Below are positions 3,195 to 21,394 of a stretch of 21,394 nucleotides of DNA, piece by piece. The stretch is from positions 1 to 21,394 of IMG/VR virus record IMGVR_UViG_3300034019_000106. The stretch is one strand, 5' to 3'. The notes under the pieces are model-generated. The model was not told the origin of the DNA. It was given only the letters and a program-made list of their open reading frames with translations, and did no database searches. The stretch's first letter is position 1; each line of letters opens with the position of its first letter. Position numbers and translations under genes: made by a program. Origin of the DNA: a virus.

Positions 3195-4109
3195 ATGGCT
3201 GCTATTTCACGCGCACAACTACTTAAAGAACTGCTCCCCGGTCTGAACGCCCTGTTCGGCCTTGAGTATGATCGTTATGGCGAAGAATATAAGGAACTCT
3301 TTGAGACCGAAAGTTCTGAGCGTTCCTTTGAAGAAGAGCAGAAGCTGTCCGGTTTCGGCGCAGCTCCTGTAAAGAACGAAGGCTCCGCTATCGCATACGA
3401 TAACGCTCAGGAAGCATGGTCTACCCGATACACCCACGAGACTATCGCTCTGGGCTTCTCCCTCACCGAAGAAGCTATTGAAGATAACCTGTACGACTCA
3501 CTGTCTGCTCGTTACACCAAAGCGCTTGCTCGTGCGATGGCCTACACTAAGGAAATCAAAGGCGCATCCATTCTGAACAACGGCTTTAACGCGAACTACA
3601 AAGGTGGTGACGGTAAAGAACTGTTCAGTAACGCGCACCCGCTGACCTACGGTGCAACCATCTCCAACATCCCTTCTACCGCTGCTGACCTCAACGAAAC
3701 CTCGCTTGAGAATGCAGTCATCCAGATTTCCCTCTGGACTGACGAACGCGGTCTGCTCATCGCAGCAAAGCCCAAGAAACTGATCCTACCTCCTGCATTG
3801 CAGTTCGTAGCTACTCGTTTGCTTGAAACTGAACTGCGTGTCGGCACCACCGATAACGATGTCAACGCTCTGAAGAACAACGGTGCAATTCCGGGTGGCT
3901 TCACGATCAACCACTTCCTGACCGATCCGAATGCTTGGTTCCTGACGACCGACGTTCCTAACGGCCTGAAGCACTTCGTTCGCGCTCCGCTGAAAACTTC
4001 AATGGACGCAGACTTCGATACCGGCAATGCTCGCTACAAGGCTCGTGAGCGTTATAGCTTCGGTTGGAGTGACTACCTCGGCGTATTCGGTTCTACCGGA
4101 TCAAGCTGA
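3195..4109 (+). CDS. Major capsid protein, HK97 fold (Mu gpT-like)
   Basis: 304 aa. The N-terminus is helical and charged (residues about 1-50). Then come a region with Tyr-Asp-Asn-Ala-Gln-Glu-Ala-Trp and the long helix SLTEEAIEDNLYDSLSARYT, followed by ALARAMAYTKEIKGASILNN, where Ala-Asn-rich segments lead to a Gly-rich loop and the strands PKKLILPPAL. This pattern is typical of the Mu-like major head subunit group. AAGGAG lies 8 bases upstream of the ATG. Three hairpins directly follow the stop, consistent with an abundant, stabilised transcript. It assembles as hexamers and pentamers around the scaffold at 1144-2058. The size fits this group. Confidence 0.85.
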   Translation: MAAISRAQLLKELLPGLNALFGLEYDRYGEEYKELFETESSERSFEEEQKLSGFGAAPVKNEGSAIAYDNAQEAWSTRYTHETIALGFSLTEEAIEDNLYDSLSARYTKALARAMAYTKEIKGASILNNGFNANYKGGDGKELFSNAHPLTYGATISNIPSTAADLNETSLENAVIQISLWTDERGLLIAAKPKKLILPPALQFVATRLLETELRVGTTDNDVNALKNNGAIPGGFTINHFLTDPNAWFLTTDVPNGLKHFVRAPLKTSMDADFDTGNARYKARERYSFGWSDYLGVFGSTGSS

Positions 4110-4152: not shown

Positions 4153-4182
4153 GAAGGGGCCATTCGGCCCCTTTTCTTTTTT
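4153..4182 (+). terminator. Rho-independent terminator after the head operon
   Basis: AAGGGGCC (4154-4161), loop ATTC and GGCCCCTT (4166-4173) form an 8-bp stem, extended by a G-U pair. The stem runs into TTTTCTTTTTT. This closes the transcript carrying the capsid gene and lies only 3 bases before the next promoter's -35 box. Confidence 0.9.
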
Positions 4183-4185
4183 CTG

Positions 4186-4214
4186 TTGACACTCCCCAAT
4201 AATCTTAGTATAAG
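4186..4214 (+). promoter_or_regulatory. Sigma-70 promoter for the gene at 4259
   Basis: A perfect -35 box TTGACA (4186-4191), a 17-base spacer and -10 box TATAAG (4209-4214, 5 of 6 consensus bases). Initiation is expected near 4221, leaving a leader of about 40 bases with GAGGG before the ATG at 4259. A second promoter at 5420-5448 shares the sequence TAGTATAAGAG, one variable base, then GTTAAAT. Confidence 0.85.
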
Positions 4215-4219
4215 AGTGT

Positions 4220-4237
4220 TAAATTTGGCCTATTTTA
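4220..4237 (+). promoter_or_regulatory. Imperfect dyad at the start site, possible operator
   Basis: TAAATTTGG followed by CCTATTTTA is an inverted repeat with 7 of 9 positions matching. It begins five bases after the -10 box, so it covers the expected +1. The second promoter has a dyad at the identical offset (5454-5469), which suggests a shared operator or 5'-end mRNA element. Confidence 0.4.
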
Positions 4238-4258: not shown

Positions 4259-5386
4259 ATGGCAAAAACATTAGCCAGCCGAGGTGGAAAACGGTGCTTT
4301 GCTGAAGGGGAAAGCGTAAAAGCCACGGGAAGAACTAAGAAAACTTCTGGTAGGGGGCTTGGGCCTAGAGGCCGCGCTGTGTCTTTCAAACCCCTAGACG
4401 ATGCTAAGAAAACTCCCGGCAAAGCCCTTGTGCCTAGGGGCAGGTACGATGTAACAACCACTGGCGATGCGAAGAAATCTCCCGGCAAAGCACTTGTACG
4501 CAGGGCTAGCTCCGATGTAACAACCACTGGCGATGCGAAGAAATCTCCCGGCAAAGCGCTTGTACCTAGGGGCAGGTACGGTGTAAGAACCACTGGCGAT
4601 GCGGCGAAAGCTACAGGCAAAGACCTTGCACGCAGAGGTAGCTCTGATGTAGCCCGTCCGGGGCGTCCTAGCATAGATGTTGACCTCAGACGGACTCGGA
4701 TAGGGCAGGAAAAAGTGATTGGCTCTGGGGCTGGAGAAAACATAGACCGCACCAAAATTTCTAGGCAGGCTCGTGCAACGTCGGAAAAGCCCGCTGGCTC
4801 TGGGGCGTCCCGTATAGGAAGAGCGGCATCTCGCACTCTTGGCGGGCTGGGGCTTATGGCCTACAGTTCTGATGTTGGGGCAGGGTCGGACAAGCCTCAA
4901 TACTATCCGGGGGAAGGGCTGAAAGCAAAGGAAAAGGCTAAGGAGCGAGATACATCAAGCAATGATTACTCATCTCAGTTAAAAAAGTACAGAGATTCTG
5001 CGCCCGCCTCAGCATCTTCATCCCCAAAAGCTTCCGCCGCATCATCTTCATCTTCGTCTTCGTCTTCACCAGCAAAACCTACTGCCAGCACGCCTAGGAA
5101 GGCCGCTGAGAAACCCTCTGCGAGAGCCTCGGCATCTACTTCCACTAAGCCTGTACGCCGTCAGGTAAGTAGTAAGCGGGCTAGTGCCGCAGAAGATAAG
5201 TTCATGTCTGAGCTAAAAGCTTCTGCGAGCAAAATGAAGTCCGCTATTTCCGACATGGCAGAAAAAACAGGCAAAATGAAAGAGAAAACTACCGCTTTGT
5301 CTCGTAGCTTCAAAAAGGGCGGTTCTGTCAAAAGTTGTTGCGATGGTCGCGCTCAGCGCGGTCGCACAAAAGGGAAGATTAGGTGA
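4259..5386 (+). CDS. Basic repeat protein with KGG/TKGK C-terminal tag
   Basis: 375 aa, strongly basic and mostly low complexity. Residues about 25-135 are tandem 22-residue repeats built on Lys-Lys-x-Pro-Gly-Lys-Ala-Leu-Val; the last four units alternate between two subtypes. Residues about 136-235 are basic with a short Gly/Leu patch. Residues about 240-320 are a Ser/Ala/Pro/Lys linker including a run of nine serines. A Lys/Met-rich helix follows, then the C-terminal peptide KKGGSVKSCCDG and RAQRGRTKGKIR. The gene has its own promoter and terminator (a moron-like layout). Composition resembles histone H1-like or protamine-like proteins, so a DNA-binding or internal virion role is possible. 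The C-terminal tag is shared with 6515-6817 and 6827-7915. I do not recognise a family. Confidence 0.8.
   Translation: MAKTLASRGGKRCFAEGESVKATGRTKKTSGRGLGPRGRAVSFKPLDDAKKTPGKALVPRGRYDVTTTGDAKKSPGKALVRRASSDVTTTGDAKKSPGKALVPRGRYGVRTTGDAAKATGKDLARRGSSDVARPGRPSIDVDLRRTRIGQEKVIGSGAGENIDRTKISRQARATSEKPAGSGASRIGRAASRTLGGLGLMAYSSDVGAGSDKPQYYPGEGLKAKEKAKERDTSSNDYSSQLKKYRDSAPASASSSPKASAASSSSSSSSSPAKPTASTPRKAAEKPSARASASTSTKPVRRQVSSKRASAAEDKFMSELKASASKMKSAISDMAEKTGKMKEKTTALSRSFKKGGSVKSCCDGRAQRGRTKGKIR
4400..4663 (+). repeat. Four 66-bp tandem repeats in the basic protein gene
   Basis: In-frame units at 4400-4465, 4466-4531, 4532-4597 and 4598-4663, each encoding 22 residues. Units 1 and 3 contain PRGRY while units 2 and 4 contain a Ser-Ser-Asp version, so the array is also a 132-bp dimer repeated twice. 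A more diverged copy precedes it at about residues 25-47. Confidence 0.85.
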
Positions 5387-5392
5387 TTAGGG

Positions 5393-5418
5393 AAAGGGGC
5401 TTCGGCCCCTTTCTTTTT
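5393..5418 (+). terminator. Rho-independent terminator with TTCG loop
   Basis: AAAGGGGC (5393-5400), loop TTCG and GCCCCTTT (5405-5412) form a perfect 8-bp stem closed by the very stable UUCG loop, followed by CTTTTT. It ends the single-gene cassette. The T tract is only one base away from the next -35 box. Confidence 0.92.
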
Positions 5419-5419
5419 G

Positions 5420-5448
5420 TTGACATGTGCTAAAAACCCTAGTATAAG
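5420..5448 (+). promoter_or_regulatory. Sigma-70 promoter for the downstream structural operon
   Basis: TTGACA (5420-5425), a 17-base spacer and TATAAG (5443-5448). Same boxes, spacer length and flanking core (TAGTATAAGAG) as the promoter at 4186-4214, though the spacer bases differ. It would drive 5538 onward. No further terminator is visible to the end of the window. Confidence 0.85.
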
Positions 5449-5453
5449 AGAGT

Positions 5454-5475
5454 TAAATCCGGGGATTTATTTTTT
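5454..5475 (+). promoter_or_regulatory. Dyad plus T run at the 5' end of the transcript
   Basis: TAAATC (5454-5459), CGGG and GATTTA (5464-5469) form a 6-bp inverted repeat followed by six T. It begins five bases after the -10 box, the same offset as the dyad at 4220. It could be an operator, a 5' stabilising hairpin or a weak attenuator. A smaller inverted repeat, TGCC/GGCA, lies further along the leader near 5487-5496. Confidence 0.4.
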
Positions 5476-5537: not shown

Positions 5538-5978
5538 ATGGCATTCGCTACATTCTCTGGCCCTGTTCGTTGCGGTACTGTTAAAGACGCTCCGGGTGTA
5601 AACACTGGCTGCATTGTTCTTTCTCAGACTGCCGCTCTTGGTCTTACTACCAGCACCCCGTTCATTCTTCCGGCTGGTGCACAGATTCTCAACTTCTACA
5701 TCGACGTTACCACGACGTTCACCACTAGCGCTACGCTGGCTGTTGGCGATGGCACCACTGTTAATAAATACGTAACGGCAATCACCACCCCCGCTGCGGG
5801 TCGTCAGACCAACACTCCTACCGCTGCTCAGATTACTGCTATGTCCAATATCGGTACGACTGATGTGACGGTAACGGTGACTATGGCTGGCACGACTGCG
5901 ACTGCAGGTGCAGGGTTCATCACTGTTGTATACGTACAGCATCTGTCTGATGGCGCACAGGTTCCTCCCTCTGCATAA
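5538..5978 (+). CDS. Beta-rich virion structural protein, unassigned
   Basis: 146 aa, dominated by Thr, Ala, Gly and Val in alternating strands, a composition usual for phage decoration, neck or fibre-base proteins. It has two cysteines near the N-terminus (residues 12 and 25), no signal peptide and no membrane segment. The RBS-like AAGGA lies about 7 bases before the ATG. It is the first gene of the second structural transcript, after a leader of about 80 bases. The role is inferred from composition and context; I do not recognise a named family. Confidence 0.65.
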   Translation: MAFATFSGPVRCGTVKDAPGVNTGCIVLSQTAALGLTTSTPFILPAGAQILNFYIDVTTTFTTSATLAVGDGTTVNKYVTAITTPAAGRQTNTPTAAQITAMSNIGTTDVTVTVTMAGTTATAGAGFITVVYVQHLSDGAQVPPSA

Positions 5979-6278: not shown

Positions 6279-6515
6279 ATGACAGAGCCACAGATCATAG
6301 TTGATGCAGTAATCGCCCTAGTCGGGGCACTGTTTGGTTGGTTGTTCAAGATGGTCTGGGATGCCATTAAAGAGCTTCAAAGAGACATCAAAGAGACCAA
6401 CCAGACGCTCCACGAAAGCTACGTAAGGAAAGACGACTACCGTGTTGAGATTGCCGAAATCAAAGGCATGTTCAACCGAATAATGGACAAGTTAGAAAGC
6501 AAGGTGGACAAATAA
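6279..6515 (+). CDS. Membrane-anchored coiled-coil protein
   Basis: 78 aa starting at ATG 6279, five bases after the preceding stop. A longer in-frame reading from 6069 would overlap the previous gene almost completely and is unlikely. Residues about 7-27 (IVDAVIALVGALFGWLFKMVW) form one transmembrane helix. The rest is a charged heptad-type coiled coil ending in LESKVDK. This layout resembles XhlA/haemolysin-like accessory proteins and some phage lysis or membrane-tethering proteins. It may assist lysis although it lies far from the endolysin/holin pair, or anchor a DNA-injection component. The stop overlaps the next start (TAATG). Confidence 0.7.
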   Translation: MTEPQIIVDAVIALVGALFGWLFKMVWDAIKELQRDIKETNQTLHESYVRKDDYRVEIAEIKGMFNRIMDKLESKVDK

Positions 6516-6817
6516 TGACCCGCGCATCCCGTGGTATTTCCAACATCCAAGAACACGCCAGAGGCAACAAGATGAAGAAGAATATGATTAAGAACAAGGA
6601 AAGCGCTAAAGTCGCTATCAAAAAGAAGCGCCCAATGGCCCCCGGTATGGGGGATATGAGTGTAGGCTCCGCTCGCTCAGGCAACCTGAAAAACATTCCG
6701 GGTATGGGTGGTATGAAGGCGGGCATGAAGTCTGGTGGCTCCTGTAAAGGATATGCCAAAGGTGGCTCAGTTGACGGCGTAGCCCACAAAGGCAAGACCA
6801 AAGGCAAAATCTGCTAA
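6515..6817 (+). CDS. Small basic protein with KGG/TKGK C-terminal tag
   Basis: 100 aa, very basic: Lys/Arg-rich and helical for residues 1-42, then a Met/Gly/Pro-rich middle with repeated PGMG and GMGGMK, then [12 protein letters not shown] and [12 protein letters not shown] at the C-terminus. The last 19 residues match the C-terminus of the protein at 4259-5386 (KGGSV, Asp-Gly, Ala, Lys/Arg-Gly, TKGKI), although the rest of the two proteins is unrelated. Translation is coupled to the upstream gene through TAATG. No known family is evident. A nucleic-acid-binding or capsid-associated minor protein is an inference from charge and context. Confidence 0.7.
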
Positions 6818-6826
6818 GAGGTAGAG

Positions 6827-7915
6827 ATGGCAAAGAAAGTAAACAAGCCAAGCGGCGGCCCTCCTACTAAGGTGTATGCCCCGCCTAGAGCTGGCGGCGG
6901 TGCCCCTACTAAGATGTTTGGCCCTAAAGGTGGTGGCCCTAAAGGTGGTGGTGGCGGTGGTGGCCCTAAGCCTGTCAAGCCGACTACGACCACTAAGCCT
7001 GTCAAGCCGACTACGACCACTAAGCCGGTTAAGCCGACTACGACCACTAAGCCTGTCAAGCCGACTACGACCACTAAGCCTGTCAAGCCTGTCAAGCCGA
7101 CTACGACCACTAAGCCTGTCAAGCCTGTCAAGCCTGTCAAGCCGACTACGACCACTAAGCCGGTTAAGCCGACTACGACCACTAAGCCTGTCAAGCCTGT
7201 CAAGCCTGTCAAGCCTGTCAAGCCGACTACGACCACTAAGCCTGTCAAGCCTGTCAAGCCTGTCAAGCCTGTCAAGCCTGTCAAGCCTGTCAAGCCTGTC
7301 AAGCCTGTCAAGCCTGTCAAGCCTGTCAAGCCTGTCAAGCCGGTCAAGCCGGTCAAGCCGGTCAAGCCTGTCAAGCCGACTACGACCACTAAGCCGGTAA
7401 CGCCCGCTCCAGCTCCAGCTCCAGCTCCAGCTCCAGCTCCTGCGCCCGCTCCAGCTCCAGCTCCAGCTCCTGCGCCAGCTCCTAAGCCGGTAACGCCAGC
7501 TCCTGCGCCTACTACACCTGCTAAGCCGGTAACGCCAGCTCCTGCGCCTACTACACCTGCTAAGCCGGTAACGCCTCCTCCTGCTCCACAACCTCCGGTA
7601 GCTCCGCCTAAGCCGGTAACGCCAGCTCCTGCGCCAGCTCCTGCGCCAGCTCCTGCGCCAGCTCCTGCGCCAGCTCCTGCGCCAGCTCCTGCGCCAGCTC
7701 CTGCGCCAGCTCCTGCGCCAGCTCCGGCACCTACAGCGCTTCCACCGCCTCCTGCTGGAGTCAGAGGGATGCACGACTTCGGCGCTCGTCAGCTTCTGAA
7801 GAAAGGCGGTATCGCGGCACTGGGTGGCAACAAGGGAATGGAAAAAGGCAAAGGTGGTAAACCACGCGGTGTTGGCCTAGCCCAGAAGGGTTGGGGCAAA
7901 GGGAAGATGCGGTAA
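6827..7915 (+). CDS. Lys-Pro-Val / Pro-Ala repeat protein with KGK C-terminal tag
   Basis: 362 aa. Residues 1-47 are Gly/Pro/Lys-rich. Residues 48-188 consist of Lys-Pro-Val units interrupted by Lys-Pro-Thr-Thr-Thr-Thr, including 15 Lys-Pro-Val units in a row. Residues 189-302 are Pro-Ala arrays with two 13-residue units. The end (about 303-362) is non-repetitive and basic, finishing [15 protein letters not shown] then WGKGKMR. Such Pro-rich sequence should form an extended polyproline-II rod, like the Lys-Pro and Glu-Pro region of TonB. No signal peptide or membrane segment is present. RBS-like AGAGGT precedes the ATG. The C-terminal tag relates it to 6515-6817 and 4259-5386. The function is unknown; a flexible or rod-like virion appendage or a spacer protein are possibilities. 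Confidence 0.75.
6968..7390 (+). repeat. 9/27-bp tandem repeat array encoding KPV and KPVKPTTTT
   Basis: Contiguous in-frame repeats of AAGCCTGTC (9 bp) and of a 27-bp unit that adds AAGCCGACTACGACCACT. Positions 7238-7372 hold 15 consecutive 9-bp units. A few units carry CCG instead of CCT (for example the three just before 7372), so copies are not fully homogenised. Copy number could change in steps that keep frame. Confidence 0.95.
7403..7732 (+). repeat. Pro-Ala coding repeat arrays (6, 12 and 39 bp units)
   Basis: 7403-7483 is made of GCTCCA and GCTCCTGCGCCA type units. 7484-7561 is two identical 39-bp units encoding [13 protein letters not shown]. 7622-7732 is mostly a 12-bp unit GCTCCTGCGCCA. 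All lengths are multiples of 3. The two outer arrays use different dominant codons, which suggests separate expansion. Confidence 0.9.
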
Positions 7916-9177: not shown

Positions 9178-9335
9178 TGGCTAAAGAAATTTGGGACAAA
9201 CCGAGACCGAAAGGATTGGACAAACCAAAGAAACTAAGTTCGGCTAAGAAGACTGCGGCTAAGGCTATGGCTAAGAAAGCAGGTCGCCCCTACCCGAATC
9301 TCGTTGATAACTTAAGGGCTGCGAGGAAGAAATAA
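9177..9335 (+). CDS. Tiny basic phage protein, MAK-type
   Basis: 52 aa, starting MAKEIWDKPRPKGLDKPKK and ending AGRPYPNLVDNLRAARKK. It is roughly one third Lys/Arg, with an alanine/lysine helix in the middle. The C-terminal Gly-Arg-Pro-Tyr-Pro-Asn-Leu-Val-Asp-Asn segment is one I recall from very small genes in T7-like and other aquatic phages, always unnamed. The start overlaps the preceding stop, and its stop overlaps the next start (TAATG on both sides). The coding reading is supported by this tight coupling and by the recurring C-terminal segment. Function unknown. Confidence 0.75.
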   Translation: MAKEIWDKPRPKGLDKPKKLSSAKKTAAKAMAKKAGRPYPNLVDNLRAARKK

Positions 9336-9595
9336 TGGCTAAGTCACCAGCATGGACTAGAGCAGAAGGTAAGAACCCGAAGGGTGGTCTCAACGCAAAG
9401 GGTCGCGCTAGCGCTAAAGCTCAGGGTATGAACCTGAAACCCCCTGCGCCGAAACCGAAAACCAAGAAGGACGCCAGCCGCAGGAAATCCTTCTGCGCTC
9501 GCATGGAAGGCATGAAGAAGGTCAACACTTCTGCGAAAACTGCTAAAGACCCGAACAGCCGCATCAATAAATCTTTGAGAGCATGGAACTGCTGA
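9335..9595 (+). CDS. DUF6321-like small basic protein
   Basis: 86 aa, starting MAKSPAWTRAEGKNPKGGLN and then AKGRASAKAQG, a pattern I associate with DUF6321 proteins of phages. The middle is Lys/Pro-rich. A conserved-looking SRRKSFCARMEGMKK and a C-terminal RINKSLRAWNC follow. The net charge is strongly positive. Translation is coupled to the upstream gene by TAATG. Family members have no known function; they may bind nucleic acid or act in head completion. The family name is from memory and could be wrong. Confidence 0.75.
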   Translation: MAKSPAWTRAEGKNPKGGLNAKGRASAKAQGMNLKPPAPKPKTKKDASRRKSFCARMEGMKKVNTSAKTAKDPNSRINKSLRAWNC

Positions 9596-9596
9596 C

Positions 9597-10301
9597 ATGA
9601 GCACATCAGGTACGGCATCGTGGAACCCAGACATGACCGAGATCATCGAGGAAGCATTTGAAAGATGCGGAGTCGAGGTCAGGACAGGATACCAGTTCCG
9701 CACAGCAAGACGCAGCCTCAACCTATTGTTTCAAGAGTGGGCCAACAAAGGACTCAATCTCTGGACTATAGAGCAGGGCCAAATCTCGTTGACCGCAGGC
9801 ACTGTGCAGTACAACCTACCTGAAGATACCGTAGACATCATTGAGCATGTAATTCGGCAGAACCCCGGCAGTGTCGCGAACCAAGTTGACCTTCAGATAG
9901 CCCGAGTTGCGTTACCGACCTACGCATCTATCCCCAATAAGCTAGCTACCGGAAGACCTATACAAATCTATGTGGATCGAGTCTCTCCTATACCGCACGT
10001 TAAAATATGGCCTACTGCTAGTGATAATAGTTACACTCTTGTCTATTGGCGCTTACGTCGCATCCAAGATGCAGGACAATCAGGTGCTAACACAATGGAT
10101 ATACCGTTTAGGTTTACGCCCGCCCTCATCGCAGGGTTAGCCTATTATCTGGCATTGAAGACTCCTGACGCTATGGATCGTATTGCGGCGTTGAAAGAGC
10201 TGTATGATGAGGCGTATGACCTAGCCGCGCAGGAAGACAGAGATCGCGCTCCGGTGCGGTTTATCCCGCATATCGGCTACGTTGGCGGCAGGGGTTGGTA
10301 A
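9597..10301 (+). CDS. Head-tail adaptor protein
   Basis: 234 aa. The N-terminal helices contain MTEIIEEAFERCGVEV and ARRSLNLLFQEWANKGLNLWTIE, a pattern typical of phage adaptor/tail-tubular proteins (P22 gp4 or T7 gp11-like groups). A beta-rich middle follows (GTVQYNLPEDTVDIIEHVI and RPIQIYVDRV). The C-terminal helices include ALIAGLAYYLALKTPDAMDRIAALKELYDEAYDLAAQEDRDR, as in the other adaptors. Such proteins form a ring beneath the portal and receive the tail or nozzle. The gene starts 2 bases after the preceding stop and ends directly at the next start. The role is well supported by pattern; the exact sub-family is less certain. Confidence 0.75.
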   Translation: MSTSGTASWNPDMTEIIEEAFERCGVEVRTGYQFRTARRSLNLLFQEWANKGLNLWTIEQGQISLTAGTVQYNLPEDTVDIIEHVIRQNPGSVANQVDLQIARVALPTYASIPNKLATGRPIQIYVDRVSPIPHVKIWPTASDNSYTLVYWRLRRIQDAGQSGANTMDIPFRFTPALIAGLAYYLALKTPDAMDRIAALKELYDEAYDLAAQEDRDRAPVRFIPHIGYVGGRGW

Positions 10302-10639: not shown

Positions 10640-10876
10640 ATGGCTAAAGATATGTGGGAAGGTTCCAGCAAAGACATTTCGCAGGACAAAAAGCTTGCGA
10701 AGAAACACAAGATGTCTTTCAGTGACTGGGAGAAGTCCCCGATGGATAAGAAGCACGACAAACAGAAGTCTATGAAAGGTCTGAAGAAAGGTGGCCCGAC
10801 TTCTATGGATCGCAAGAAATTCGGCAAGAACATGTCTCGTGCGATGAATCAGAAATCTTCTGGAAGAGGTCGCTAA
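10640..10876 (+). CDS. Small highly basic protein with KKGG motif
   Basis: 78 aa, mostly Lys, Ser, Asp and Met. The N-terminus is [20 protein letters not shown], then [22 protein letters not shown], then MKGLKKGG and a C-terminal basic helix ending SSGRGR. No cysteine or membrane segment is present. The internal LKKGG resembles the Lys-Gly-Gly of the tagged proteins (4259-5386 and 6515-6817), but the following residues differ. The RBS is AGAGGTAA. The stop overlaps the next start. It probably belongs to the same class of small basic accessory proteins. Function unknown. Confidence 0.7.
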
Positions 10877-11055
10877 TGGCTAAATACGACACCAGCAAGC
10901 ACACTGAGGGTACTGAAGAGTATCGCGGCATCAAGGACGTACCGCAGCCGCATGGTAACGGCTACCCGAACAACATACCGAACACCAAGACGGTTAAGAT
11001 TCGCGGTACGGGCGCAGCCACCAAAGGCACCAAGTGCAGCAATAAACTAGGCTAA
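10876..11055 (+). CDS. Tiny protein with C-terminal RGTGAATKG motif
   Basis: 59 aa, starting [21 protein letters not shown] Pro/Asn/Gly-rich middle is followed by KTVKIRGTGAATKGTKCSNK. The Arg-Gly-Thr-Gly-Ala-Ala-Thr-Lys-Gly segment is one I recall from small phage proteins, and it aligns loosely with the C-terminal tags of 4259-5386, 6515-6817 and 6827-7915 (Gly-x-Ala-x-Lys/Arg-Gly). Coupled to the previous gene by TAATG. The homing endonuclease gene begins 3 bases after its stop. Function unknown. Confidence 0.75.
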   Translation: MAKYDTSKHTEGTEEYRGIKDVPQPHGNGYPNNIPNTKTVKIRGTGAATKGTKCSNKLG

Positions 11056-11058
11056 AAT

Positions 11059-11874
11059 ATGAGGTACGGGAGCGTCTATATTTTGACTAATCGAATCACC
11101 CATTGTCAGTACGTGGGGCAGACGATCCAGCCTGTAAAAGCTAGATGGCGGGCGCATGTAGCAAACGCAAAAAAACCCAAATTTGACATTAGTAGAGCGA
11201 TTAGCATTTATGGCGAGCGTGCCTTTAGCATAGTGGAAGCCTACATAGCTTTTGACAAAAATGGGCTTGATGCTGCTGAAGTAGCGTTGATAGCGGATTT
11301 GGCCCCCGCTTACAACATGACTAAAGGTGGTGCGGGTAGTCCCATTAGAATAACTCCTTATGAGTTACGCGCAAAGCGCTCTTACGCCGCTAAAAAGCGC
11401 TGGGCTGATCCTAAATGGAGGGCGACCACTATAGCTAAAATGGCCGCTGCTGTCTCTTTAGAGGCTAAGCAGGAGCAAGGCAAAAAGCTGATACAATTCA
11501 AGGGTGGGGTTAAACGTTGGGAAGGGCATGTGAAAAAAGGACGCACGCTAAAGTCTCGTTCTGAAACCGTTAAGAAGTCATGGGGCGATCAGAATGTGCG
11601 GGCCAAGCGGATAGAAGGGATAAAAAAAGCGGTCAGCGATCCAGCGGTTAAGGCTAAATTACTACTGAATTTACAGAAACCACAACCAAAAGAGGCTAGG
11701 GATAGGACGGCTAGGGCAAAATACAAGCCTGTGTACTGCCCAGAACTTCAAGTAACATTTATATCCAGAAAACATGCAGCAGCGCATTTTGGTGTGACTA
11801 GAGAGACTATCCATTGCGCTATAACAAAACCGCATAAAATAAAAGGTCTTTATTCTTTAGTCGGACAGATTTAG
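11059..11874 (+). CDS. GIY-YIG homing endonuclease, free-standing (Seg-like)
   Basis: 271 aa. The N-terminal nuclease domain (about 1-92) has VYILTN (Y7) and QYVGQT (Y18, G20) as the GIY and YIG parts, basic RWRAH (29-33), and the catalytic-type Glu E74 in AAEVALIADL, then YNMTKGG (85-91). The middle (about 100-215) carries repeated Lys-Lys-x-Trp-x-Asp-Pro units of NUMOD3 type that contact DNA. The C-terminal 45 residues (FISRKHAAAHFGVTRETIH) look like a NUMOD1/IENR1 helix-turn-helix. It cuts a specific DNA site and spreads by repair. It sits between structural genes with 2-3 base junctions and no intron features. Its codons favour AAA, ATA and TTA more than its neighbours, consistent with separate acquisition. 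Confidence 0.92.
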   Translation: MRYGSVYILTNRITHCQYVGQTIQPVKARWRAHVANAKKPKFDISRAISIYGERAFSIVEAYIAFDKNGLDAAEVALIADLAPAYNMTKGGAGSPIRITPYELRAKRSYAAKKRWADPKWRATTIAKMAAAVSLEAKQEQGKKLIQFKGGVKRWEGHVKKGRTLKSRSETVKKSWGDQNVRAKRIEGIKKAVSDPAVKAKLLLNLQKPQPKEARDRTARAKYKPVYCPELQVTFISRKHAAAHFGVTRETIHCAITKPHKIKGLYSLVGQI

Positions 11875-20018: not shown

Positions 20019-21394
20019 ATGGCATACACATCTACAGCTAAAGGACTTGCAGCACTAGGTCGCGGTGGAGATAACACCCTGATGCACGTAGGAAAAAACG
20101 AGCTAGCGGGTCTTCAGCATGTGCTCGGCAGAGAGCTGACGGTGAATCCAGAGACAGGGTTACTAGAAGCGTTCAGCCTTTCCGATATTCTGGTGCCTCT
20201 GGGTATAGGTTTAGCCGCCGCTGCGACAGGTGGCGCTGGTGCGGCTGCTTTGGGCGGTGGAGCGCTGACTTCTACTGCTATAGGCGCGACCACAGGTGGC
20301 TTGACGCAAGGCGCTATCAACAAGATGCAGGGTAAAGATTTCGGCGCGGGTTTTGCCGGAGGTGCCCTCACTGGTGGTATAAGCGGCTATGGCGCTGCTG
20401 ACCTTGCTGGTGGCCCTATGGGGGCGGCGACTCCTGCGGCGCAGCTTCCCGCTCCGGCTAATTTTTCCAATACAGTACCGAGCAATCTTCTAACTAAAGC
20501 GGGTGTGCCCGCACCTGCAATGCAGGCTCCCGTAGGGCCGATGTCGCCTGTCACCCCTAAACCCATAGTTCCTACGCCTGAAACCCCCTCTTTCACTGAT
20601 GCCTTGACTAAGCAAGGCTCAGCTATGCTCAAAAATGCGGGAGATTTGATTAAGCCTATTGGTATGGGGGCGATGCTGGGCAGTGGGATAACTTCTGCTA
20701 TGAACGAGAGTGCAGTAAACGCACAGAACCTACGGCAGCAAAAACTGGCGAGGCAGCAAGCTGAGCAAGAACAGCAACAATACTTTTCTAGCCTTGGGTA
20801 CCCTCTACAACCGCTGAGTAACTTGACTTCTCAAAGCCCTAACGAGCAACGCGGCAACACTCTCGATATTATTCGCGGGTATGCAGAAGGAGGGACTACA
20901 GACTTACGGCGCGTAGTGGGTGGGGTACCCATCAAGACTTCAATCCCAGCGCAACATATAGATACTTTCGCTAACGCCGATCTAAATAATGAACTGAAGA
21001 AATTTCAAGGCATTAAGAGCTTTGCACAAGGCGCGTTGGTTAATGCCACGCCCGCCCCTGAAGAGGGGATGCACCCTCTGTCGATGGTTCCGCAAGCCCG
21101 CCCGCAGCTAGGAGCCACTCCTGTTAAGCGAGAAGTTGTTGGCTATGATGAAGGTGGGCTATTAGATGGCCCCGGCGATGGAATGAGTGATGATATTCCT
21201 GCCAGCATAGAAGACAAAGAAGAAGTCCGAGTGGCTGATGGCGAGTTTGTTATTCCGCCCGAGATTGTACGCATGATCGGTGATGGCGACCCAGAGAAAG
21301 GGGCTAAGCTGCTAGATCAACTACTGCCTTTGGTTCGTCAAGCTGCACATGGCAAGAAAGAGCAGGTAAGTCAAGATGCTGGTAAACTAGCCGC
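20019..21394 (+). CDS. Internal virion / tail protein with DGEFVIPP domain, truncated by the window
   Basis: 458 residues visible from ATG 20019 (RBS TAGGAA); it stays open to the right edge. Residues about 60-130 are Gly/Ala-rich with hydrophobic runs (IGLAAAATGGAGAAALGGGA), a possible membrane-penetrating segment. A Pro/Ala linker and a Gln-rich coiled segment (about 235-255) follow. From about 290 come GYAEGG, later GYDEGG (375-380), then GPGDGMSDDIPA and ADGEFVIPPEIV (406-417) and GAKLLDQLLPLVRQAAHG. This GDGMSD plus DGE-x-VIP block occurs in many internal or tail-tip phage proteins. It probably acts in DNA ejection. The C-terminal part is missing here. Confidence 0.75.
   Translation, partial: MAYTSTAKGLAALGRGGDNTLMHVGKNELAGLQHVLGRELTVNPETGLLEAFSLSDILVPLGIGLAAAATGGAGAAALGGGALTSTAIGATTGGLTQGAINKMQGKDFGAGFAGGALTGGISGYGAADLAGGPMGAATPAAQLPAPANFSNTVPSNLLTKAGVPAPAMQAPVGPMSPVTPKPIVPTPETPSFTDALTKQGSAMLKNAGDLIKPIGMGAMLGSGITSAMNESAVNAQNLRQQKLARQQAEQEQQQYFSSLGYPLQPLSNLTSQSPNEQRGNTLDIIRGYAEGGTTDLRRVVGGVPIKTSIPAQHIDTFANADLNNELKKFQGIKSFAQGALVNATPAPEEGMHPLSMVPQARPQLGATPVKREVVGYDEGGLLDGPGDGMSDDIPASIEDKEEVRVADGEFVIPPEIVRMIGDGDPEKGAKLLDQLLPLVRQAAHGKKEQVSQDAGKLA

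Follow-up and report, generated by a model that had tools for sequence, protein, structure and literature searches.

A portable terminal peptide on unrelated basic proteins between the capsid and neck genes of a phage lineage

The window analyzed here, the whole stretch of 21,394 nucleotides of viral DNA, is a phage head-neck-tail module with several recognizable landmarks on the plus strand. A GroES-like co-chaperonin that belongs to the head module and marks the lineage (744-1133; phrog_3188, E 1.6e-14) is followed by a 304-residue protein (1144-2058; phrog_28737, of unknown function) whose position upstream of the capsid gene suggests a possible scaffolding role, and by the major capsid protein (3195-4109; phrog_371, E 3e-22; Phage_capsid_4, E 4.5e-14). 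Among the named relatives identified through the capsid protein are Planktothrix phage Pag-Yong1 (69.5% identity), Pelagibacter phages HTVC023P/HTVC027P, Phage DSL-LC04 and Roseobacter phages CRP-901/902. Farther downstream are a probable cement protein (5538-5978), which is weakly similar to the cement protein 7eel_H (E 0.028) and homologous to an annotated cement protein in the relative L003, a DUF6321 protein (9335-9595; PF19846, E 2.3e-21), a probable neck/adaptor protein (9597-10301; phrog_12985), named after homologues annotated as "adaptor" or "tail adaptor" in relatives, and a p78-family protein (10640-10876). No separate protease gene was recognized in the window. A homing-endonuclease-like gene (11059-11874; phrog_314, phrog_19446) separates a 59-residue protein, considered below, from the next structural gene, and the gene at 20019-21392, which has a matching gene in Pag-Yong1 (L004), encodes a C-terminal part (GGLLDGPGDGMSDDIPASIEDKEEVRVADGEFVIPPEIVRMIGDGDPEKGAKLLDQL) resembling another reusable phage protein end.

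The capsid and neck genes border a cassette in which three proteins, also encoded on the plus strand, were described in the earlier note as unrelated low-complexity bodies with aligned C-terminal ends. The positions assigned to these ends (5312-5383, 6755-6814 and 7847-7912) are all in frame and reach the stop codons. According to an independent tag model, which was built from relatives only, with no window sequence, and tested on 167 window ORFs, the alignment is certain for the first two proteins and marginal for the third. The first (4259-5386, 375 residues), whose ortholog is L007:4012-4863, has a Lys/Ser/Ala/Pro-rich body with a 66-nt repeated unit and ends in KKGGSVKSCCDGRAQRGRTKGKIR (iE 2.3e-7). 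The second (6515-6817, 100 residues), with orthologs in L007, L008, L011 and L012, carries the tag with an iE of 5e-8 and is predicted to be disordered, AlphaFold2 yielding no confident structure from a shallow alignment (pLDDT 54, pTM 0.11). The third (6827-7915, 362 residues) consists largely of repeats, namely a long run of KPV and TTTT-KPV units followed by Ala-Pro repeats ((KPV)n, PTTTTK, (AP)n), and its divergent tag is matched, on the last 40 residues, with an iE of 0.093, or 0.0022 without composition correction. The minus strand over this gene is also open for 335 codons. The cement, DUF6321 and p78-family proteins of the window are untagged, the first of them lying inside the same interval.

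On both sides of the first tagged gene (4153-4224 and 5394-5458), a terminator-like hairpin is followed by a TTGACA-N17-TATAAG element, the two copies being 77% identical over 48 nt, and these flanking elements make the gene look like an inserted unit. The close relatives L007 and L008 have similar elements downstream of the capsid gene, but few others do.

A profile of the three window ends matched 70 stretches (iE<=0.01) when 5943 ORFs from relatives selected by capsid protein were searched, whereas the same ORFs gave no match once the body and the last 30 residues had been shuffled separately with composition kept; the iterated profile reached 104 stretches within the capsid-selected loci, again against none after shuffling. 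A chance origin of the shared ends is rejected. In its usual form, KKGG..SSASxRADG[IC]Ax[RK]GKT[KR]G[KR]MV, the tag is C-terminal and comprises approximately 20 residues. The main counts were taken from profile models because the first regular expression demanded Ala and Thr and lost variants such as KGGGIESKGKTKGKM.

No published description of the tag was found in the literature searched, and a search of paper text for its letters returned nothing relevant. Three short tag queries gave no tblastn match in isolated phages, which is weak evidence of absence because only near-exact copies pass at such a length. A scan of bacterial and archaeal genomes returned 110 stretches, approximately the number estimated for chance, and 6 of the 82 matches examined look like real tags (four contigs, three genome bins). 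The tag-bearing contigs in bacterial bins (L225, L222, L268 and L273) are probably mis-binned phage DNA; the contig from which L225 derives is 62.8 kb long, which would suit a phage genome.

Within the capsid-selected loci, 78 of 81 core matches fall no more than 25 residues from the stop, and 45 of the 81 lie exactly three residues from it. The bodies of 297 distinct tagged proteins form 112 clusters, 81 of which are singletons, these numbers being approximate because single linkage at E 1e-3 was used. The bodies are basic (median pI 9.8), and 70% of their residues are disorder-promoting. Two Pfam scans of 248 tagged proteins gave a handful with any family match, the rare recognized domains being DUF6321, two LysM and one DUF6496, and Pfam detected no enzyme on main-tag bodies. 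In addition, the tag follows DUF6321 at the C-terminus in 11 relatives, forms the N-terminus of p78-family proteins in roughly a dozen others, and lies slightly inside the end, before ...MKKGGKAC, on proteins whose first part is a module with the motif SKKQHNF. This distribution, together with the approximately 110 body clusters, indicates a movable element and rejects a single diverged protein family. The DUF6321 profile does not match the tag itself, and in the 3 of 132 scanned tagged proteins that have this domain it precedes the tag.

All four codons occur at the invariant Gly, Ala and Thr residues of the tag; part of these residues is fixed by the pattern that fetched some of the loci, of which the profile counts are independent. 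Since the codons vary freely while the peptide is constant, selection acts on the peptide. Only 3 of 68 tag pairs within genomes are at least 90% identical in DNA, by which recent duplication of tag DNA is rejected, and free codon use and the scarcity of near-identical pairs together argue that selection, rather than recent copying, maintains the peptide. Older copying probably played a part as well, because tags of one genome have a higher codon identity (0.51) than codon usage predicts (0.41). The last tag codons can have a second task as part of the ribosome-binding site of the next gene: if no more than 6 nt separate the stop from the next start, 70% of the tags have GGA or GGG as the Gly codon of the final K-G-[KR] and 43% show an AGGA/GGAG/GAGG motif, whereas with a more distant gene the Gly codon is GGC or GGT in 17 of 18 cases and the motif is absent. 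It might be argued from this dependence on the closeness of the next start that the conservation of the end chiefly reflects a nucleotide signal; however, such a signal accounts for the choice of the last codons only, tags without a close downstream gene retain the same peptide, and every synonymous codon occurs at the conserved residues lying 15-30 nt upstream, a freedom that refutes ribosome binding as the main cause and makes this explanation extremely improbable. The claim that a conserved peptide sits on differing bodies is therefore upheld by approximately 110 body clusters, terminal position, head-module location and peptide-level selection: the tag is real, selected as a peptide, portable and terminal.

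Every one of the 29 capsid-selected loci whose capsid-to-neck interval is complete contains tagged ORFs in it, with one to six per interval (mean 2.55). A total of 74 stretches are located within this interval and 10 outside it, all of the latter being N-terminal tags. Moreover, 118 of 119 contigs retrieved by the tag pattern alone carry head-module markers of the same lineage, the exception being only 1 kb long. Planktothrix phage Pag-Yong1 has a tagged protein (UMO75986.1). A recognized tag was not seen in several isolates of the capsid family (among them DSL-LC04, Roseobacter CRP-901 and Caulobacter RW), so that some members do without it. The genomic place of the tag bears on the possibility that the tagged proteins act outside the virion, the tag sending an accessory set with anti-host or anti-defense functions to a partner in the cell, such as the host polymerase, a chaperonin or the assembly zone, while the position in the late operon is incidental. 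Hypervariable bodies are what accessory genes tend to show, and the first tagged gene is bracketed by terminator-like and promoter-like elements as an inserted accessory gene would be, but the strict confinement between capsid and neck genes in all 29 loci and the lack of any enzyme among main-tag bodies in Pfam make this explanation unlikely.

The 59-residue protein mentioned above (10876-11055, plus strand) had been taken for a carrier of a weaker version of the same tag, with RGTGAATKGTKC as its end. RGTGAATKGTKC does not end the protein, as five more residues, SNKLG, follow it, and the first statement is not supported in that form: the main tag model does not match the protein (iE 1.5; 0.5 on the last 40 residues), whereas a sister tag, present as RGTGAATKG eight residues before the C-terminus, is matched by its own model (the C2-type model, RGxGAAxRG; iE 0.0017, and 0.0009 on the last 40 residues). 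The sister tag, RGxGAAx[RK]G with the consensus RGxGAAxRGxxFxGVF, resembles the main tag in being terminal, often after KGG, and in occurring on varied bodies (129 in 29 clusters), but it has a consensus of its own and its carriers of the 59-residue type are missed by the main model. When RGxGAAx[RS]GxxF, a pattern containing no stop codon, was scanned for, 122 of 123 matches lay no more than eight residues from the stop. Markers of the same wider lineage are carried by 72 of 120 sister-tag loci, and gp51 of Pelagibacter phage HTVC023P ends in a form of this tag. A common origin of the two tags is possible.

The earlier note had suggested a docking, packaging or capsid-targeting role. We infer this to be the best-supported family of functions, because the tagged genes lie only between the capsid and neck genes and because a common body module also begins the jumbo-phage protein CBB_322, which is found in virions. 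This 45-residue module (SKKQHNFMAAVANNPxFAKKVGVPQSVGKDF), seen in L074:5086-5583, L440:3001-3177 and L438:4001-6544, is common to small head-cassette proteins of the lineage and jumbo phages, phiKZ included (72% identical), and resembles the N-termini of PHIKZ165.1 (phiKZ), CBB_322 and GAP32_317. It is predicted as three helices, and no solved fold matched it. Mass spectrometry has detected CBB_322 in jumbo-phage virions, where 30 unique peptides covered 43.6% of it (PMC5259590). A virion location of the proteins carrying this module is thereby plausible; CBB_322, which opens with the module, belongs to a distant jumbo phage and has no such tag, so the observation bears on the module and not directly on the tag.

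Our specific proposal, which we hold tentatively and at slightly less than an even chance, is that the peptide might be a portable virion-incorporation signal for hypervariable basic head proteins. Phages of the GroES/Phage_capsid_4 lineage, an aquatic group, keep a hypervariable cassette from the capsid gene to the neck gene, whose products are small, basic and mostly disordered, and many of them end in the same peptide of approximately 20 residues (KGG, a spacer and then RADGxAx[RK]GKT[KR]G[KR]MV). The tag would bind a single partner that is produced alongside the tagged proteins, most probably the scaffold or else the inside of the capsid shell, and this binding would take any tag-carrying body into the procapsid, where the basic bodies would sit with the DNA, to be ejected with it like the internal proteins of T4. 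The body would be free to change because the tag alone would be needed for loading. The possible scaffolding protein at 1144-2058 is a candidate partner. Tags are more similar within genomes (0.758) than between genomes (0.667; 0 of 2000 permutations), and this likeness, combined with the low DNA identity, is compatible with one shared binding partner. Because of shared descent, the distances between tags correlate with those of all markers tested, and co-variation therefore singles out no partner.

The same low-complexity bodies would also suit external filaments, and the tag might instead anchor a decoration outside the finished head, docking on the capsid or cement protein with the disordered Pro/Thr/Ala/Lys-rich body pointing outward. 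Terminal anchoring peptides are a known means of attaching decoration proteins, the tagged genes adjoin the gene of the cement protein, and bodies such as that of 6827-7915 consist of long, extended repeats. Two sister-tag proteins contain LysM, a domain that binds cell walls, which is compatible with a location inside or outside. Strongly basic bodies, however, suit packaged DNA better than an outer surface, and we think external decoration rather unlikely.

In a wider sense, it is conceivable, although doubtful, that abundant freshwater and marine phages pack fast-changing, disordered, basic proteins by means of a mostly C-terminal loading code and deliver them to the host, that this code exists in at least two sister versions (RADGxAx[RK]GKT[KR]GKMV and RGxGAAxRGxxFxGVF), and that new bodies are recruited by gaining a tag. 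If the tag loads virions, hundreds of unannotated phage proteins would be marked as virion cargo from sequence alone, and the peptide would provide a simple handle for finding phage proteins delivered to the host as well as a short label with which reporter proteins could be put into phage particles. Loading aside, the tag clearly exemplifies a conserved peptide that moves from one unrelated protein to another within one gene interval. Annotation by whole-protein homology overlooks such a moving terminal peptide, as reflected in the few Pfam matches among the tagged proteins.

Several known systems share some features with the tag. The GxxxxGK[ST] motif of P-loop NTPases (Walker A) is present, as G-x4-G-K-T spacing occurs in 92 of 104 unbiased tags, and this spacing and the strongly basic character of the peptide would fit a generic binder of nucleic acids or anions, in which the basic residues or a GxxxxGKT phosphate-binding loop hold packaged DNA. 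However, the motif stands at the end of a chain predicted to be disordered, with neither the strand, helix nor Walker B of a P-loop enzyme and without a Pfam P-loop match, and the P-loop is rejected on fold by the strandless, shallow-alignment prediction for 6515-6817. A role in charge only would not preserve Asp-Gly, Gly-x-Ala and Thr, and Lys is swapped for His, Arg or Leu in nine tags; we consider generic nucleic-acid or anion binding quite improbable. DUF6321 (PF19846) is likewise a short and basic module encoded in this head region, and according to PHROG matches several longer phage proteins have it at their C-terminus, but it has approximately 75-85 residues and a consensus of its own, and rather than being the tag it carries the tag in 11 loci. 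In phage P1, several Dar proteins (DarA, Hdf and others) are packed inside the head and ejected with the DNA, and loading is ordered through DarA-Hdf, with no shared portable tag described in the part of that source available to us (PMC12810830). A further parallel is the capsid-targeting sequence (CTS) of the T4 internal proteins IPI-IPIII, a short terminal peptide common to different small proteins, which is reported to carry almost any protein joined to it into the head (PMC7697877). As in T4, one peptide is found on several unrelated small proteins of a phage (1-6 per interval). The T4 sequence, on the other hand, has approximately 10 residues, is N-terminal and is cut off by the head protease, whereas the tag has approximately 20 residues and is usually C-terminal, only the p78-family tags being N-terminal. 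Without claiming membership of that system, we infer that the tag may be similar to the T4 CTS in role, and it is from this analogy that loading into the procapsid is proposed.
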